64,000 bases of DNA. It comes from Peltaster fructicola. Its lineage: Eukaryota; Ascomycota; Dothideomycetes. The DNA is taken from the NCBI GenBank assembly GCA_001592805.2, contig CP051140.1, positions 1-64,000 of the forward strand, given 5' to 3'. The notes beneath the pieces are model-generated. The model was not told the origin of the DNA. It made no database searches and was given only the letters and a program-made list of their open reading frames with translations. The stretch's first letter is position 1. Each line of letters opens with the position of its first letter. Position numbers and translations under genes: made by a program. Below, one piece after another: positions 1-11,900 of this stretch.

Positions 1-89
1 CCCTACCCTACCCTACCCTACCCTACCCTACCCTACCCTACCCTACCCTACCCTACCCTACCCTACCCTACCCTACCCTACCCTACCCT
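1..89. repeat. Telomere, CCCTA (TAGGG) five-base repeat array
   Basis: Seventeen perfect head-to-tail copies of CCCTA plus a final CCCT occupy the very start of the window, so the left edge is a chromosome end with the C-rich strand reading inwards. The unit is five bases, not the six-base CCCTAA (TTAGGG) usual in filamentous fungi; no copy carries a second A. The array passes abruptly into satellite-like subtelomeric sequence after base 89. Confidence 0.95.
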
Positions 90-120
90 TGCAGTGTGAG
101 CCTCCCAAGCCCCATGAGGA

Positions 121-3100
121 GACGCTCTGTGCTCTTGAGTCCTTTGTTATGATGCTCTGCTACCGCCGTGGACGTTAAGCAATCGGCAAAGGAGCTCGCT
201 CCAAGCAGCGACAACACAGGTCCAGTGAATATTGCCAGTATGAGCTACTCAGCTTTCGTGGTGGCTTCAAGATGCTCTGTACTCTTGAATGAGTCGTCTT
301 CCGGCGGTGTTGTTGTTCTGAACGTCGAGTAATGTGAAGATCAAGCTCATCGCCTACTGCGACATCACGGCATGCGACACCATCATGCGAGCTCTGTGAG
401 TTCTTCGGGGACCATCACTGCTTCTCGACGCTCTGCGCTGTTGTCGACCATCATGCTGAGTTGCTGCTGTAGCCATTGCGGAACATCGGTCTGACGATCA
501 CTCACTTGCTGCAACTTGACCGCTGTCGAAGAGCTCAGTTGGCGTGTGCGAGCACTGTAATACCCATCGCTGCGTGCCGGAGACTCAAAGATGCTCACTT
601 CACGGCCTCCCAGCTCTGCTGCTGCTTCAGTGATCGAGAATCGAGAGGCTGAAGCTCACTCAACTGCGGCGACGATATCGACCGTCAAGGTGCTCATCCG
701 GTATCTGGAGGCTCTCAAAGCACCACTGTTGACTTGATCCAGCTCTGCACTTCTTAATGAACCATCTCTCGACTCTTTTGCTGCTGTGGCGATCGAGAAA
801 CGATGCTGCAAGATCAGAGATATCTCCCGGCGTCGACGGCTGTTGTTGATACAAAACTCCTTCTGAGCACTCAATAGCATGTCGCAGGGCTTGATCTAGC
901 CTGGCGCTACTCATCGATACACGAGTGACGTCTGCAGCATGCAAGTCGCTTGGTGAATGAGCAAAGACCCAACGTCGTCCAGAATCGTCCATCAGTAGGA
1001 CTCTCGCACGGCCGTCGCTCTCAGAGACCTCTCGGAGGACATCGCACGGTCTTCCCGCTCTTGCGCAAAGCTCTGCGACAAGAACAAGCCGTATAGCTGC
1101 TCCAGTCGTTGTAGACAGTCCTTGAGGTTCAGCGTGACCACATTCACCGTCTGCTCCAGCGCCAAAGTTGCGCTGCTCTTGTGCCATCGACGTATCCATT
1201 GTGTCTCTCTCCGACTCTTGCGCTACACCTTGCGACATCAGTGAGCCCTCCAGGTGCGCCCGTGTGTCTTGCGATCGTCCTTAGAAGCTATGGTGATGAC
1301 CGTCCATCGGCGGTGGCTTCGATTCGCTGCGATGACATTTGTCCGTCGCCGGCTGCTTTCACTGACTGCGGCTGTCTCTGCGCGTCGTCGGTGTTGCTCG
1401 CTGGCTACAGCAGTGTCTGTTCAATCGTAGGTGCCTGTCGCTGGCTGCAGCACTCTCTCTCATCAGTGTCTCTGACTAGCTGCCATGGCGATAACTGTCG
1501 TCGGCTGTGGTGCTATGATGCCATGATAGCACCGCTGTGTGGCTCGCCGATGCCATTCGATGTCGGTCGGCTATTTGACGAGTGCTGTTGTCGATGGATG
1601 TTGCGAAGACCCGTGTGACGCTGAAGACCCTCTGCCACAACATTAGTAGTAACACCTCCGGCAGCCCTGACAACTTCTCAGCTTGCAGTACTCTCTCCTA
1701 GCTCTCGATACCAGGAAGAATCAGCTCTGCAACATGTGTGGTCTTTGAGGAACGACGAGAAAGACTAGCTGAAGCTGACTCACCTATGCCCTCCTTGTGA
1801 CTGTGTACAGTATGCAAAACACGAGCGCACTCTCCAGAAGATAGATTCGAGTCGCAGCTCACCCATCGTATATCGCTGAAGGTCTCAGCATGTGTGTTCG
1901 TCGAGTAATGGCTGTAAGAAGTTCACCTGGCTGAACGAGTACTCCGGCAACAACATGCCTTAGACAGCACCCATGCTCTTGCCCTACTGCATGCCAGCTG
2001 TAGACGGTCCACACTATCCATGGCGTGGAGCGTGAGCCCTTCTGGTGCACTCTCAGATATGCTGTCATTGTCCTCTTAGTCTCCATGCTCTTCACCAATC
2101 TGTCGATACCACCCGGCGGTGTCACCAACTGTCCCCTGCTCTTGCTACTAGGTCTACGCTATCGCTAGATGTGTTGATCAGTGCTGCAATTGCTCTGTGT
2201 GGTGGACAAAGACTGATCGTAGATGTAGTGGGTAGTGATGTCTTGGTACAAGACCAGGGTCTCCGGGGCCTGCGCGGTGCTTTGGTACTCTCGCACGCAA
2301 TGAAGAGCATCGAGCTTATCGATCGCCATAGGCATGGCATGCCTGCAATGTGTACTCGTGGAGGATTGTCTGTGTGGAGTCAGCTGGGTTGAGCTCTTCC
2401 GACAGCACCATCTCCTCTGCGCAGCACTGAAGCAATTCCAGCTACTCTCGTAGCAATAGTACAAGCTCTCAGCTATCCATTGATGTATGGATCACCCTGG
2501 GGACAGACCTGCTTGGAATGTGAAAAATGATTGAAGTCACTCACCTGCGACACCTCCGTCACTCACCAAGTGTTTGCACTGCTCCAATGCCCTCAGCTAC
2601 CATGCAGGACGATAGCAGACACTCTTGGCTTCTCGCTGATGTGTTCCACATCGCAACAGCTGCTCTGTGCGATGCACAAAGGCCATTGACAGCTGCACCA
2701 TTACGCTCACAACAGACAGCACCGTGACGGCGTGTGTACTCCAATACTCTCAACAACGTTATCCACTGATCACTTGCTCTTACACTCTGCCCTCCGTCAT
2801 GGACATGCTGTTCAGTCGCTCGCTTCGTTGTGTAATGGCTCTCGGAAGTGCGGACTTCGTGACGCTCAGCGACAAGTACACCACTCTCAACACATTGTAT
2901 CCTTCCTCCGACTCTTACACTCGCATCTATGAGCCTCTCAGAATATGCGGACGTAGCGGATTCGGTGTCTGGGCGTGGCGCTGCTGTCTTAGGATCGTGA
3001 TGAGGTGGGAAGGCATGTGGTGGTGTCGGAGGAGGTACAGTGCAGCTGTACTGCTCGCGGTCGGCTGTCGTGGTCTTTGGCTACTCGCATACTCTCGACG

Positions 3101-5250
3101 CTCTCGTTTGGGGCTTGAAATGAGCTGCCTGCGATGTGTGTTCGTCGAATAATACCTGGTTGAAGATCAGCTTGATCAACAGCAGCACCACCGACTTGTG
3201 TGCTCGATGTCCACCAAGGCGCCAGGTCTTCTCCAGATATGTTCCTTCATCTCCGTCGCGATCATTTGGTGCTTGGAAGAGGTCCCTGCAGTGCACGGCG
3301 ATTGAGTAGCACCTGCTCCAAGATCGGCGTCTCGCAGCCCAGCATATCGACGACTTCCTCAAATCGTTTCGAGAGTATCAGGCGTCCTGTGAGCACTCTC
3401 TCCGGCTCGTACGCTCTGCATGACAGCAAGTACGAGCACTGCATGTGCTGTGCGGTGTGTTTTGACCATCCAATTTTGCAAAGTGCTCCACCAGGATCAC
3501 CACTCTGCCTTTTATCCTGACTCCTGGACAGCCCACCTGCCTCTCAACTTGTTCTCCTACTCTTACGGATCAATCTGATGTATGAACAAATGCTGCAGGA
3601 TGTCTGGTCGTCGAACGGTACCTGTTTGAAGATCAGGTTATCCACATAGTCGCACGCACCTCAACGGCGATACCAACGTCTGTACAACATCTGCACGTTT
3701 CCACGAGCTCAGCTTACTCTCACGCACTTGCTGAGGCAGCTTGATCGACCTTTCCTGGTGCTTTGGTAGTTGGGATGTAGCAATCGTCATGCTCAGTGTC
3801 GGCAGCATCAACACCCAGCGCAGGACGTGAGCCATCGCAAGACTCCCGAAACTGCAGTCCAGCGATAGCGCAGCTCGATAGCTCTGATCTGTAGCTTGAT
3901 TGAGCTGGACAGGTCTTCTGTGATCTGAAGACAACCATCGAGAAGATGTATGACCTTTGAGTTGTCACCACGATGTGCGAGCCGCCAGTGACAATGAGGC
4001 GTCTTTGCTGGCCGTTATGCGATTCTTTGTGTTCGTAGCTCTTGATCGTAATGACCCTGAAGCCTGCAAGATGCGCAATCGTCGAGTTATCGCTGTTGTC
4101 GTGTGCACTTGTGCAGAAGTTCGGCCTGAAGAACGTGGACGTATGTAGCCTGTATACCCTTTTCGACAATCCTAGCTCTTCCCGTTGACGATACGCTATC
4201 GGTTGATGGTCTCGCAGGCTCTGCAACTGCTCTGTGTGGTCGTAGATGCATCGTGCCGCTCGTCCATGTGCCTCAGCTTCACTGTCGACGACACTCCGAA
4301 CGGCAGCTTGTATACTGGATTTGACAGCCCCAGTTCTTCCTGTCGGCACTGCACAGTCGATTGATGGTCTCGCAGACTCTGCAACTGCTCTGCGCCTTCA
4401 TGATATCATTGCGACGCTCCTCGGTGTGCCTCAGCTTCATCGTCCACAACACACCCGCGAATAGCATGTATTCTGGTGTCAATCTATCCAGCTCTTTCTG
4501 TAGCTCTGTAGCTCTCATGCGCAGCGATTGCGAAGTGTGCAGCTTCAGTTCCGACCGAGAAATGGTGGTGTGATGATGGCAGTGTGTCCAGCTTCGAATG
4601 TCACAAGCAATGCCCTGCAGCTCCAATATTCATATACCACCATTCCCTGCTCTTTCTGTAGCTTCGAAACTTGCTACGACGTGGTTGGTGGTGTTTACAG
4701 GTGCTCTGATCGTTGCTGAAGATGTTGTCGTGTCGAAGGAGGTCCTATTTCATGATCAGCAACATCGACAACGCCACTGCTCCAGAGCTCTCAAGCAAGT
4801 CGCAGCTGATAGTGTACACTCTACACTCTTGCTTGAAGCATGCCTCGCTCTTCTGACGGCTCTGTGCGCTGAGATATCGCTGTCGGCGTCGAACGTTGCG
4901 CTGGTCCATGAACAGCGATGTCAAGATCATCAAGGCTTCGGATGCTCTAAAAGATGGCCTAGCTGATAGAGTAGGCTCGGCGCTCTTGCTAGAAGTATAG
5001 CTCATTCCTCTGATGGCTCTGTACGTTGAGGTGTGGTCGTCGGCGTCGAACGTCGCTCTGGTCCATCGGTAGCAATATGAGCACCGCCACGGCGCTATGA
5101 GTCTTCAAGGACACCGCAGCTGAGAGAGCACACTCGCCGCTTCCGCCACAAGTATCTGTCATCTTGCTGACTGCTCTGCACGTTGAGGTATGGCTGTCAC
5201 CGTCGTACGCCGCCCTGCTTCTTCATCAGCAACTACACCACCTGTACGAA
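121..5250. repeat. Degenerate ~157-bp tandem satellite, telomere-proximal part
   Basis: Related words recur at a near-constant interval. A GAYGCTCTG-type word starts at 121, 271, 427, 590 (diverged) and 741. A CCAGCTCTTYCTG-type word starts at 4172, 4330, 4488 and 4646, exactly 158 bp apart. GATGGTCTCGCAG starts at 4205 and 4363. A GRYKGCTCTG word starts at 4855, 5012 and 5169, exactly 157 bp apart. A separate motif around CGTCGARTAAT, followed by TGAAGATCA in most copies, starts at 323, 1899, 3143 and 3609; the intervals are close to 10, 8 and 3 units. Units differ by roughly a third of their bases, so it is an old array. Exact borders cannot be set by eye. Confidence 0.7.
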
Positions 5251-6330
5251 CCGTAAGACTCCCGAAAGATATCTTGGTCGATACAGCAGAGTCAACACTG
5301 TCATATGAGGCTATACTGATCCCTCGATCGCGTGTCGTCGTCTCGTTACACGTCTGTTGTGATGCGCGCGCTTGTCGCAATCATGCGTCTCGGCGTCTTG
5401 CTGTGGTGGTCGTGTACATCTATACTGTCCACTGGGCGATAACAGGCACTCGGCGCTCTCGATGACAACAAACACGAGCGCAATAGCAGTCCGACTCGTG
5501 GATTTGTTGATGTCGTTGTCTTGGGTATGAGGGCTTTGCAGAGTTTTTCACATGTCAGCGGAGACATCACCAGCACTCTTGGCACCACTTCTTCGACCAT
5601 TGCGACACCCATGCTGTCTCAACACTCCCGAAATAATGCTCAGGAGGTAGTAGATGTTATACGCTATCGTCTCAGCTTTGAACGAGCTGCATAGCACGCG
5701 TAGCCATGCAGATATAACCATTTGCGCTCTGTGCTCGGGTACTTTGCAAATTTGTGTTGCAGTCAATTCCATCCACTCAATTGCACATGCGTTTCGGTTC
5801 TTCAACAAGCGATATACCAATGATACATTGACTACGGATGTGTACAGCACCGCCCACGGCCTACCGCATCCTTTAGTGATCGTACGACGCTCGTATCCAG
5901 CTCAATGCCTCAAACATGCGCGGATGGACCACAATCCTTGGTCTGGGCTGCTCACAAGGACGATGATGAGCTGCTCATGCAATGCTGGAATCGTTGTCAA
6001 TGGACTTGAGCTCTATGCTCTCTCTGGCACACACCCTACACATCTAGACCCTGTGCAATAAGCAAGCACTGACAACGAGGGCGATGTACAGCCTCTGACA
6101 GTAGGTGTTCGAACGCTTTTGACAACTCCCTGCTGCAGATACACACACACAGAAGAGCCGTCGACAAGCTCGCCAAGGCAAGAGTGGACGCTTGATGTGC
6201 TGTGGGAGCCTCGACAACGCATGTGAGCTTCTCACGGCGGTCAATGTCTTGGATGATGATTGTGGGCTCTCATCAATTGATGAATGTCTTCACCAGCTAC
6301 TGTCAGCTCAAGCCGGATAGTAGACGTCTT

Positions 6331-6930
6331 CAGCAGTGTTTCTGGGCTCTTACAGTTGTCGGACATCCTCAACAAGGAATCTGGACTGGATATGGCTAGC
6401 GGACGGCTTCATGAAGGACTACAAGCTTTCGGCGATCATTGCATGGCTCAGACAACACCTGTGAGCTTCTAACCACGATGGACGTGGTCAACAACATCTC
6501 CGAGATGCCACTGATTAGCAGTCCAGCTTCTAGCGACTGGTGCATGCTTCGACAAAGCCTGTGAAATTCCAGCGAAGAAAGGACGTTCTCAGCACGATGG
6601 TGAGCTCTGAGTGTTCAGTAGACGGCTTCGACGTTGCCGAGAAGATCCTTGTGACCGGTAGACGGCTTCAACAGCAACGACGAGCTCTCGATGAGCAGCG
6701 GACGGCCCCGACATGGACGGCGAACTTCTTAGGATCAATAGGCGGACTAGGCATCGACAACGAGCTTCTTGTGGAGGATCGACGGCCTCACTGGTAGCCA
6801 TGTTCTTACACTAATCGGCAGACGTTCTCGACATTGATTGTGAGCTCAGGCGATCGTCGTACACCCTTAGCGATGGTCGTGAACTATCACTTTCTTGACT
6901 TCGACAAGAGCCATCTGAGACTCTCAGCAA
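6331..6930. repeat. Degenerate ~40-bp tandem repeat (GACGGCTTC..GAGCTCT)
   Basis: A module of the form GACGGCTTCRACA, about 12 bases, then GAGCTTCT/GAGCTCT recurs at about 6331, 6370, 6402, 6441, 6481, 6542, 6582, 6622, 6662, 6704, 6740, 6780, 6823, 6862 and 6897. Most steps are 35-43 bp, with one step of about 60 bp. Four modules are about 157-160 bp, so this looks like the basic monomer from which the longer-period satellite is built. Copies are strongly diverged and no protein is encoded through them in one frame. Confidence 0.7.
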
Positions 6931-7340
6931 GAGGTGAGCGTATCCTCAGATCGTGCTGAGTCCCTGACGCTTTGCCAGTATAGAGTACAACAGGACAGCG
7001 GTCGACGGCCTGGGACGTGGGCACTCAGCTTCAATGCTCTGACGCCGAAGTTTAGCTCGTGTTGCTGCAATGTTGGTGTGGCGCCCAGGACAAGGCGGAG
7101 GCGCTCTCTGATTGCTGTTGACAGGACAATGACAAGCTTCAGATGCTCTTCGGCAGCCCGCGACGAGAGCGCAGAGGTCTGCAAGGGCCTGAACTGCTGC
7201 TAGGACATTGCCACGACGACTGCGAGCTTCCGAGACTCTGAACGCCAGTACGAACGACTCCTACAGCTCCAGCATCGTTGCGGCCAAGCGAACTGACGAC
7301 GGTTTCGATGCCTTGAATCTGCATCTAATGACAAGCTGAA

Positions 7341-7605
7341 GATGTGCAATGATGATCCTCAGCCCTCAAAGCCCTGGCTATCTGTGAGTAAGACAATCTC
7401 ATGACGGTCCTCGAATGCTGACGATCCTGCTGGTGGCAGTTTATGTCTTCAATGACCACAGCAACCTGACGATGTGCAATGAGAAGTCGCAACTTGACGT
7501 ATCGGCGATCTGCAAAGCAAAGGAAACCCACGACGGTCCTCAGACGCCAGAAAAGTCACAATGGGCTGATCTTGACCTCTGTAGCAGGATCCTCTGTAGC
7601 AGGAT
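7341..7605. repeat. Diverged ~130-bp tandem duplication and a 15-bp direct repeat
   Basis: GATGTGCAATGA starts at 7341 and 7471, and GACGGTCCTC starts at 7403 and 7532, so a segment of about 130 bp is present twice in tandem. At 7576-7605 the 15-mer CCTCTGTAGCAGGAT is repeated twice without change, a much more recent event than the surrounding divergence. Confidence 0.7.
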
Positions 7606-8759
7606 CATGAAGTGCTGCGACTGGGTAGGGGTTGAATGGCAAACCACTGAATCATGGTTATCGACGACATTGATCGTAGGCTGCCAAACGCCTCTGCATG
7701 GTTGAGAACATGACGTTGTGCTGTCCTTGCTCGAAGTCGAACAAATCAGACGCTGCCTATGAAGACTGTACAGTGACGAGAGAATCGATGAGCCGTTCAT
7801 GCTACTGCGCCTCTGTCAAGACAGATGATGTGCGGTTGTACTGCCAGTAGTCTGAAGCTGCAAAGGACCATGGATGCAGCTTGATATCGTGCTGTACTCC
7901 TCTCGACATCGCTCAGGATGTGTTGTGACATCGAACGTGGCCCAGAGGGCTGAGTGAGAGGGCTGGATCCGATTGTCGCTCTGCTCGTAGTTAACACATC
8001 TTCTTCTCCTCGGGTATGTGTCGTGGGCAACCCTTCAAGTCGTCAACAGCGGCCTGCTGATTGTCAGAACAGCTGTACAGCTCCAGTATTGATGACGACT
8101 CGCTGGCCATAGCGAATCTACGTTGACGACACCATGGTAGAACCATATCTTGCTACTGAGCTCTCTCGTGGCGATGCATTGATCACACCAGCGTAAGAAG
8201 ACGGCAGGAGTGTCGTGTCTGCCTTCGATGATGTGCTGATGCTGCTCTGCGTACTCATATTACTCGTGGACGACGGCGTCAATTGCAATGCTCTTTCGAT
8301 CATACTCGTCTCATAATGCTGCTTCGGTGACAGTAATGGTAATGGCGAGCTCTTGTGCCACTCACGACGACGACAAGGACCAACAGTCTCATGTGTTCGA
8401 CTTCATTGGCACCATTTGCTGCAATGGCTTCCCGATTGTTGATCAGTAAGAAACGTTAGGCTCTTAGATGATCCCCAGCGGCTTCCAGGACGAGCGGATA
8501 AGACACATTCACAAGCATCCGCACTAGACAATGGTCTTGACTGAGCTCTCACTAGTTCTGAGCGAGCTGCTACTTTCAAAGACATTGCAGACGTCCAGTA
8601 GTCTGAGGACATCGTCAGAAGTGCGCCTGACTATAGCGATCCTGTACACAGGGCTCCTGCAATATTGTAGCTGACTTGGCACCCATGACAAGAGTGCTGT
8701 CGACGTGGCACTGCTTTCATGATCCTCTGTTGCTTGTGAGGAGGGTTGTACGCTCCACG

Positions 8760-9230
8760 CGCTCCCGATCATGGTGGTGCTGTCATACCATCATGATGCT
8801 TGGTCGCTTCTCAACTGGATCGAGGGTTGCAACAATCGTCTGGTGCCTGCGTTGCTACGAGTGAGCGGTATCGAATGCTCAGTGGCCTTCTAATGACAAC
8901 GACGCTGTGACTGAGGTTCGCTGAACGATCAGATGCATCCTTGACGAGAGCATTGCTGTGATCATGCTATACTGCTTGTGACAGAGTTGTGTTGAGCGAT
9001 TGGCTGACGATAGCATGTTGCTGTTGCATATCTCATGCTAGAAGCCACTGCTGACCACGGTAGGAAGTCTCGTCGCTGGTTGGAACGATCCTCTGCATCC
9101 TTCGGCAGCTTCAGAGATGATGGCGAAACGTGAGCCCGAGAAGTGAGACTCTCCACGATGCTGACCACGATGCTCGTCACTATCCTATGGTAGAAGATCG
9201 TGTGTAGCGTGAGACAGTGTCGCTCATGAG
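8760..9230. repeat. Further ~158-bp period satellite units
   Basis: The word CGATC followed by an AT/TGCATCC-like stretch recurs near 8765, 8923 and 9083 (steps 158 and 160 bp). The second and third copies share GAACGATC and TGCATCCTT. This extends the same long period seen nearer the telomere to at least 9.2 kb. Confidence 0.5.
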
Positions 9231-9710
9231 CTGTGCAACGTGCTGTGGCTGCTGACGCAAGGCTTGGATCTTCCGGTGTACATCTTGCTGTATCTCAACT
9301 GATGCACGACGCTCATAACGACGACAACCTCGAATAAGCAGCCTCTACTGCGTACCACAGCGACATCGACAGTGACCGGCAAGGGCTCGAAAAGATCGTT
9401 GTTTTTCCTCCTCAACATCAGGCTCATCGACACATGCTTGCTGAACTCCGTCCCTGGTCTTGACGAGATATCACTGATGACTCCTCTGAGGCCTCTCGTG
9501 TTCGTGGTATGGTTGCGATGACAATGCATTATTGACTTGCTGGTCGTCTTTAGACAGACGACAACCATTCTATTGTTAGCTCAGGCTCGCTGTGACGCAA
9601 GATCAACCATTACCGAGAGCAGCTCAAGCAGCGTGCTCTGCGGAGCTGCTGCCTGACCAAATGAGATGGTGAAGACCGAGGTGATGGGTGTTGGGTGTAG
9701 ACGAATGAAG

Positions 9711-9770
9711 AACTGTGATTAACGAAAGACTGTGATTAACGAAAGACTGTGACCCCAAGACTGTGATTGC
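9711..9770. repeat. Short 17-bp tandem repeat (GACTGTGATTAACGAAA)
   Basis: Two nearly perfect 17-bp units (9711-9727 and 9728-9744) are followed by decayed GACTGTGA starts at 9745 and near 9759. It is a small minisatellite inside the gene-free region. Confidence 0.75.
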
Positions 9771-11614
9771 TGATGAAGACTTGGACGGCCAGATGTGAGG
9801 CATGCGGATGTGCACACTATGTTTGTGAGGGCATCTCAGCGCTCGTCAACCAAGCTGCTATGCTGAGATGCGAAGACGAGCAAGACGATTCGTTCTCGTG
9901 AAACCATACTGGTTGACAGCAGGTATTCAAGCTCAGAAGATGCAGTGCTTGCCTTGTCTGAGATCCTGCTGAGCTTCTGTTATAGAGACTGTGAATGATG
10001 GCGGATCGCTGACTGTCATTCTGTAGGCGTCGTGGTTCAGCGAACGAGGTGATGAGGGAGGTATGCTGCAGGCCAGCAAATCGACAAAGGACGTACGATT
10101 GGCATTGACGGCGGATCGAAAGAGTTTCGAATTGAGACTGCACTCGAAGAGTAGAACGAGGAACGATTGCAGGAATGTGAGGCAAAGGTGAGGGGATGAC
10201 CGCGTCAAGCCATAGTGCAACCACAGCACATGCGACAATATGCAGAGGAGTCTGCACAAGCAGGTCAGCTGACTGAGCATAGTCTGGTGTAGCAGAGTCG
10301 TGCATGTGAGTTGGGTGCTGGGCAGGGAGAGCATACGTTAATGCTGGAAGAGAGGATGCAGAAGCGATGATCATGTAGCTGGATGTGCAATATGGATAGG
10401 TGAGAGACGGGTCTGCGTGTGAGGGAGTGTGCTGTCAAGTGACACAGCAGCAAGATTGTCTTTTCGTGAGCCGGTGTGCTGTCGAGTGGTGTATGGACGA
10501 GATCGCGCGTCGGATAAGGTGTGCTCTGGAGCGTGCTTCGATGCGATCGTGCTTCTGAGCGATAGTCACCTCCAGGTGGTGCACATGCTGTCTTGCTATT
10601 GTCAGTGCTGTTACGGAGGCCTTTGAACTAGGTCAGGTCGTTGGGAATGAGAATCTTATCTTGATGGTGGTGAGGCCGCGTGAGACAATGTCGCCTTGCC
10701 TGCGATGTGTTGTGTATCGAAAGCTTCTTGTCAAGGTATTGCCTCGAGCATGCTGTCGAAGTACGCTGTATGAGCCTGAAGATGCTGCTGCAAAGGTATG
10801 GACGGCGCAGCGTCGTTCAATCTGAAGCCTCCTATGCTCGCAGTCTCGTACACGTAGGCGTTCTAGTCGAGCTTGCTCAAGTGGAATCCAACATCTGGAG
10901 AAAGATCACAACCATGCTGTGGACCGCCTCTTCTGACTGCTCTTGAGGAGATGATGATGAAGACTGTGTCGTATTGTCTCTTGGAGAACCCGATGGCCGT
11001 GCTTACGGAAAGGACAGTGCCATGCATGGAAGCCAGCTTCAGAGGCGGTGATCACTGCAGACCGTGATGGATCATAGGTACATGCAAAGCGGTGGCTCCA
11101 TAGGTGGTCTTGTAGTCTTCCTTCGGTCTTCTTCTGATCCTTGTAGCCTCGCCCTATGCTTCCTGTGTAGTTTTGTCTTGCTCTTTCTGTATGGTCATGC
11201 CTTGCTCTCTCGCTGTTCTCTTGCCGTGCTCTTCCTGCTTCATAGGAGCCGCTTACCTGTGTCATGTTGAGAACGCAGTAGTGAGGTGACCCAGTCGAAG
11301 GAAGAGGGATCGAAGTGAAGCGCAGGAGGGTGCGAAGGTGTTCGAGTGGTGTAGAAGCTTGTTTGGGTGCTTCAGGACAACGATCGTCTTTCGTGGGTGC
11401 CGATTCGAAGCAGGAGGATCGGCCCCAGACTGCTGCTGTGCTCTTGATGGCAGAGAATGCATACGATTGGACGTGGCAACATTGCTATGGCGTTGAAGCT
11501 CAAGATCGGAGGAGAGCTGGGTGTGTCTCGTGGTCCAGTCAAGGTTAGGAGATAAAACCGATCGCCTCGCACGACGATTCGACGAAAGTGTAGAAGTCTG
11601 AATCCTCCGGAGGA

Positions 11615-11690
11615 CAGCTTGAGGTGGAATGAGAGATCTGAATGGCTCATACACAGCTGGAGGTCGAAGGTAAGATCTGAGTAGCTCGAA
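11615..11690. repeat. Pair of ~39-bp repeat units
   Basis: CAGCTTGAGGTGG..AGATCTGAATGGCTC at 11615 and CAGCTGGAGGTCG..AGATCTGAGTAGCTCG at 11654 are 39 bp apart and align without gaps. The monomer length matches that at 6.3-6.9 kb although the sequence differs. Confidence 0.65.
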
Positions 11691-11825
11691 CTTCGTGGAG
11701 CAGCTAAGGCACTGGCGTAGAAGGCTGTGGCCTGTAAGACAGCTGGTCGCTGGAGTACCTGATTAGGTTGTAGACAAGCTCGAAGGACGGACAACAGCCT
11801 TTGACAAGTCAGTAAACGAATGAAA

Positions 11826-11900
11826 CTACCCTGCTTACCCTAGGAAATATACCACGACCCTTCGACCCTACTATCCGACCCTACTACCCATACCTACCCT
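11826..11900. repeat. Interstitial degenerate telomere-like tract
   Basis: Within 75 bases there are repeated CTACCCT, TACCCTA, GACCCTACT, GACCCTACTACCCA and CCTACCCT words, in the same orientation as the terminal telomere. The joins read CCCTAC/TACCC, as expected from decayed five-base CCCTA units, and no CCCTAA is present. It sits where the flanking repeat family changes, which fits an ancient chromosome end later buried by addition of 11.8 kb of new subtelomere, or a telomere capture or fusion scar. Confidence 0.7.

Follow-up and report, generated by a model that had tools for sequence, protein, structure and literature searches.

The five-base TAGGG telomere of Peltaster fructicola: a near-pure repeat at all ten contig ends, with candidate changes in the telomerase RNA template and in a Tay1-like protein

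Introduction

Telomeres of most Pezizomycotina are built from TTAGGG units, as stated in the accessible text of the TelFinder study (PMC10100673). For Peltaster fructicola, the available sections of the genome paper published in 2020 (PMC7181583) describe an 18.99 Mb genome in five telomere-to-telomere chromosomes of 2.77-4.89 Mb with the repeat TAGGG, which its authors present as unseen before in other fungi and for which they name Giardia as the parallel. The TAGGG telomere of this fungus is thus already known. TAGGG is also given for P. fructicola by TelFinder (PMC10100673, 2023, in the text available), an entry that probably rests on the same assembly. As far as they are accessible, PMC7181583 and PMC10100673 back the statement of a first-pass annotation of the DNA studied here that TTAGGG is usual in filamentous fungi and that TAGGG is best known from Giardia. 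Neither TAGGG nor Peltaster is mentioned in the text of the TeloBase paper, and no publication on the telomerase RNA or the telomere proteins of P. fructicola was found in the open-licence papers searched.

Telomerase RNA templates of the TTAGGG kind are described for Aspergillus in the accessible part of PMC3603654. Tay1 has two telobox Myb domains and no TRF domain, and a precedent exists for a Tay1-type protein that tolerates altered repeats (PMC6746865, available sections). What is added here to the published repeat is an analysis of the binding proteins and of the template. The window, i.e. the whole stretch of DNA that was analysed, comprises 64,000 nucleotides and corresponds to C2:1-64000 of a five-contig assembly (C1 to C5) that totals 18,987,130 bases; its base 1 is therefore a contig end.

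Results

TAGGG arrays at the contig ends

Positions 1-89 of the window consist of (CCCTA)17 followed by CCCT (Tandem Repeats Finder; 100% matches, score 178), in agreement with the 17 CCCTA units counted in the first-pass annotation. They form the telomere at the left end of C2 (chromosome 2). Its G-rich strand, (TAGGG)n, is read on the - strand, 5' to 3' in the direction of base 1. The array is common to all ten contig ends. Counted on the C-rich strand, left and right ends hold 15 and 16 units in C1, 17 and 18 in C2, 21 and 9 in C3, 19 and 24 in C4, and 18 and 21 in C5, with terminal tracts of 47-124 bases. The total of 178 units is made up of 177 CCCTA and a lone CCCA, which lies in the right-hand array of C5. 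No CCCTAA was present within 150 bases of the tip at any end. Inspection of all contig ends for TAGGG versus TTAGGG, which had been proposed as a check, thus upheld the idea of a five-base telomere in a filamentous ascomycete.

Genome-wide, (CCCTA)3 was present at 155 places compared to none for the reversed-order control; among the matches listed, at least 100 places were at contig ends, and the ten arrays sum to 155. TTAGGGTTAGGG had no match in the whole genome. When up to one mismatch was allowed, CCCTAACCCTAA was found at four places genome-wide, none of them exact, and its control at 39. All five left ends read CCCTA and all five right ends TAGGG. The arrays are terminal short tandem repeats with the G-rich strand oriented 5' to 3' towards the end, as is characteristic of the telomerase type (TxAyGz). 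They abut ten different subtelomeric sequences, and the joins fall at differing points of the unit, which would be expected of ends grown by telomerase.

The ACCCT cluster and the subtelomeres

An 'interstitial tract' at 11.83 kb had been put forward as an argument that the five-base unit is old. At 11828..11900 (+ strand) there is a cluster of six irregularly spaced ACCCT in the C-rich sense, which start at 11828, 11837, 11857, 11865, 11878 and 11896. None of 200 dinucleotide-shuffled versions of the window reached six ACCCT in 80 bases (shuffle mean 1.7). The cluster contains three CCCTA, followed by C in two cases and by G in one. Hence, the cluster is real and the CCCTAC joins exist in two places, but no two units stand in tandem and the cluster is no telomere array; a single 8-base stretch of the array, CCTACCCT at 11893, is present. 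It may represent a decayed telomere seed or a group of telobox-protein sites. Since its units do not form a tandem array, it was rejected as proof of an old unit. Nor can it date the repeat, because interstitial TTAGGG arrays are missing genome-wide as well.

Subtelomeric DNA was assigned to 90..12500 (no strand; right border arbitrary). Its four ORFs of at least 150 aa gave no Pfam match over the cut-off; a low subtelomeric gene density is reported in the accessible text of PMC7181583. A decayed tandem repeat of 157-158 bases is located at 4147..5250 (+ strand) with copies at 4147, 4305, 4787, 4944 and 5101, the non-reference copies being 61-72% like their reference. A 157-base period is also present in the left end of C3 (L013), and periods of 406-407 bases were seen in C1 left, C1 right and C3 right, accompanied by periods of 201 and 215 in the first two.

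The outer ~6 kb of C1 left (L009), C1 right (L010) and C3 right (L014) showed strong mutual homology, unlike what is stated in the available sections of PMC7181583, which report no homology between any of the subtelomeres for regions of up to 25 kb, at thresholds of E 1e-3 and >10% coverage. Examples are one piece of 2,371 bases (84%) and another of 1,460 bases (89%); once joined, the pieces of a pair add up to 2.9-3.5 kb. These three ends account for 153 of the 156 matches between ends; the remaining three measure 36, 48 and 137 bases, the last of which links C4 left and C4 right. As the best single piece covers just under 10% of 25 kb and joined pieces cover more than 10%, the published cut-off explains the discrepancy only if single pieces were judged one at a time.

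Telomerase protein and telomere-binding proteins

The TERT locus was found on C4 near 517-520 kb. It encodes the TERT RNA-binding domain (PF12009, E 1.7e-42, C4:518480-518878) and a reverse transcriptase domain (RVT_1, E 7.9e-13); TERT_C, with E 5e-4, is below its cut-off. The reading frame contains IDVQGCFDSL and RLIDDFLLI, which we take to be the catalytic motifs A and C. POT1-family matches above the cut-off were obtained at two places, C1:420065 and C5:692512.

Two candidate duplex-binding proteins were identified on C3. The first (near 2,441-2,443 kb; entry AMS68_004865) belongs to the TRF/TBF1 type as it has a TRF domain (PF08558, E 1.7e-38) followed by a telobox Myb. The latter remains below the cut-off of PF00249 (21.8 vs 24.4 bits) and matches the solved chains of trf1 (E 4e-28) and TBF1 (E 4.7e-23). 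The second (near 2,182.7-2,183.9 kb, in locus L043, C3:2180000-2186500) is Tay1-like, with two PF00249 Myb stretches in a protein devoid of PF08558; the telobox motifs are RTALDLKDRFR in Myb1 and RTRTDLRDRMR in Myb2. Two homologues among the best 120 of its 231 matches are named telomere-associated (protein) 1.

According to the first-pass annotation, the changed unit implies that the telomere-binding proteins have adapted. The TRF/TBF1-type protein was compared with the best 120 of 896 matches, the top one being the species' own entry, which leaves 119 relatives. Every residue of its recognition helix KDRNQVQLKDKARNLK is invariant across these 119 best-listed relatives, and the string RNQVQLKDKARNLK is present in all of the best 120 of 896 homologues. 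Odd residues are located outside the recognition helix, namely Val 259 (in none of the 119 relatives) and Gln 319 (in one of them). The named relatives are presumably Dothideomycetes; TTAGGG telomeres were assumed for the 119 from the general statement on Pezizomycotina in the accessible text of PMC10100673.

The Tay1-like protein was compared with the best 120 of 231 matches. The Myb1 helix has the majority residue at each position. The Myb2 helix HRTRTDLRDRMR contains a rare arginine that is present in 4 of 121 aligned proteins (best-listed matches); the others have Ala (51), Pro (34), Ser (29), Thr (2) or a gap (1) at this site. Carriers of the arginine are the window organism, P0121 (98% identical), P0122 and P0123, which form one clade with a support of 0.99; P0122 and P0123 are encoded on contigs of 6,307 and 1,395 bases, respectively. 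In the HMMER alignment, the arginine aligns with the Ser that precedes the telobox Val of the solved TRF1 chain 1ity_A, in a part of helix 3 that is expected to touch DNA. Other rare residues of the protein (Ser 93, Gln 104, Gln 205, Thr 212 and Leu 248) are each found in one or two of 119 relatives, with P0121 left out of this count, and the helix residue Met 240 is common to 41 of 118 relatives. Judged by sequence comparison, the Myb2 arginine is a lead for adaptation, beside the other rare residues. The expected adaptation was thus not borne out for the TRF/TBF1-type protein, and any change in the recognition helices of the two candidate duplex-binding proteins would be confined to a single rare residue, that of the Tay1-like protein.

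Search for the telomerase RNA gene

Template-like words were searched genome-wide together with their reversed controls. CTACCCTAAC was found at 6 places (control, 46), CTACCCTAC without C on either side at 34 non-telomeric places (123), TACCCTAAC not preceded by C at 22 places (85), and CTACCCTAA not followed by C at 10 places (50). The four words are 3.6 to 7.7 times rarer genome-wide than their own reversed forms.

No convincing telomerase RNA gene was recognised at the 67 sites read of 72, i.e. 36 of the CTACCCTAAC/CTACCCTAC sets, which cover 30 of the 34 CTACCCTAC places, and 31 of the TACCCTAAC/CTACCCTAA sets. Stop-free frames of 120 codons or more enclose 30 of the former 36 sites, and such frames of more than 100 codons enclose 27 of the latter 31. 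Clear sites of the first group are L048, L054, L072, L074, L076 and L079, five of which are CTACCCTAC sites; L076 alone among the six is followed by more than 500 clear bases. Clear sites of the second group are L085, L101, L104 and L110, each viewed in a stretch of 700 bases. Around the five clear CTACCCTAC sites (30 read), a series of Sm, splice-site and branch-point motifs was sought and none was found.

A whole-genome search with the Rfam model RF02462 gave no match at E<=10. Scoring reached just 2 of the 2434 first-look candidates, and no match was obtained in any control genome, so that this search says little either way. At E<=5, RF02462 had no match in the loci scanned, the last 30 of which were only 700-2,100 bases long, and L076 (C4:2183067) gave none at E<=10.

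L105 (C3:2459765) drew attention on visual inspection, as a short hairpin stands immediately 5' of CTACCCTAA and a run of T follows. The site folds no better than shuffled sequence (z 0.18), and 83 bases downstream begins an open frame of 114 codons or more, presumably DBP10-like; a Pfam search with the fragment returned only Stm1_N, below the cut-off. Based on the DNA near the site, L105 was rejected as telomerase RNA because of this open frame and the shuffle-like fold. Its CTACCCTAA is possibly a promoter site of the telobox type. A stem-loop pattern modelled on the vertebrate P6.1 matched 85 places compared to 95 for its control, and three of the 85 were exact. L081, the only exact match with stem pairing by eye, is within a 477-codon open frame and was discarded. 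L045 (C1:1721648-1721686) contains an inverted pair, CTACCCTAAC and GTTAGGGTAC, about 20 bases apart, which resembles a double site for telobox proteins; C1:1721677, another of the 72 places, lies within L045.

Templates that would yield TAGGG

Copying, translocation and re-alignment (with at least two bases paired) were modelled in a toy simulation that runs without a boundary element or kinetics. Templates of the TTAGGG type with 9-11 bases and each of their one-base deletions were used as input. When CUAACCCUAAC, CUAACCCUAA and UAACCCUAA each lost one A from the copied half (5'), the product was pure TAGGG; when the same templates lost one A from the alignment half (3'), TTAGGG stayed in place. 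Loss of one of their three central Cs resulted in TTAGG. Loss of U stopped the cycle, except at the 5' end of UAACCCUAA, where TTAGGG was kept. In this model one mutation is therefore enough, and CCCUAA may stay in the template. As CUACCCUAAC still yields pure TAGGG in the simulation, the view that a CCCTAA-type template speaks against the five-base unit is too strict.

A change in both halves, resulting in a fully periodic template such as CUACCCUAC, is possible though rather unlikely. It differs from the single deletion only in the form of the template; pure TAGGG was obtained with it in the simulation too, and nothing in the present data separates the two cases. It requires two changes where one suffices in the simulation, and the five clear CTACCCTAC sites, to which such a template might correspond, have neither an RF02462 match nor the Sm, splice-site and branch-point series. 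Improbable to a much higher degree is a template that is still of the TTAGGG type and has a shifted boundary, so that copying stops earlier and re-alignment by one base gives TAGGG: slippage or misalignment, sometimes with an extra T, has been suggested for Aspergillus kawachii and A. niger in the accessible part of PMC3603654, but alignment by a single T should produce a mixture of TAGGG and TTAGGG, and the ends contain 177 CCCTA, one CCCA and no CCCTAA. Very improbable indeed is an artefact of base-calling or polishing by which one T per unit was dropped from a true TTAGGG, as the second T is missing in 178 of 178 units at ten ends with no residual CCCTAA, and as the assembly was made by SPAdes with Illumina reads, Pilon at ~256x Illumina and then Nanopolish (PMC7181583, available sections), even if all repeat evidence comes from this one nanopore plus Illumina assembly, in which the ten ends are not independent experiments and the telomere tips may be poorly polished.

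Discussion

The array at positions 1-89 is very probably a real, telomerase-made TAGGG telomere that goes back to a changed template of whatever form. We infer on sound grounds that the telomerase RNA template has changed, and this change would account for a unit with one base fewer than the TTAGGG found in most Pezizomycotina. The simplest route, which we favour somewhat, is the loss of one A in the copied (5') half, e.g. from CUAACCCUAAC to CUACCCUAAC. After such a deletion telomerase would add GGTAG per cycle and the alignment half would not need to change; the template would have a form such as CUACCCUAA(C).

The change may have been tolerated because telobox proteins are predicted to read the AGGGT core, which is retained in TAGGG. 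The recognition helix of the TRF/TBF1-type protein was retained, and one residue in the second Myb of the Tay1-like protein may represent an adjustment. Taken together, a single-base deletion in the copied half, tolerated through core reading by the TRF/TBF1-type telobox and followed by a compensating arginine in Myb2 of the Tay1-like protein, is a tentative and, as a whole, doubtful scenario. If it holds true, relatives with the Myb2 arginine should carry TAGGG telomeres as well.

Peltaster thus offers a clean natural case in which the unit has been shortened by one base and the recognition helix of a likely duplex-binding protein is unchanged. It makes a viable change of telomere repeat amenable to testing, i.e. 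which protein tolerated it and which one adapted. Beyond the published repeat, the testable part concerns the template of the telomerase RNA and the arginine of the Tay1-like protein, and searches for telomerase RNA should admit templates with CCCUAA on the alignment side.

With respect to known systems, the telomere studied here is the same as the published one of P. fructicola: the species, the size of the assembly, the number of chromosomes and the unit found at every end all agree. The TTAGGG telomeres of most Pezizomycotina share the AGGG core with those of Peltaster and have one T more per unit, and relatives of Peltaster possess telobox protein genes of the same kinds. Nosema muscidifuracis, a fungus in the wide sense, also has a shortened unit: according to the accessible text of PMC11592040, its telomeres are a TAGG/TTAGG composite in which TAGGG is a minor unit (1.5%) and, unlike in Peltaster, the four-base TAGG is the main one, so that five bases are not the minimum for a unit. 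The five-base unit of Giardia, as given in the available parts of PMC7181583 and PMC10100673, is identical to that of Peltaster. Giardia is an unrelated protist, and the likeness would reflect convergence, not kinship.
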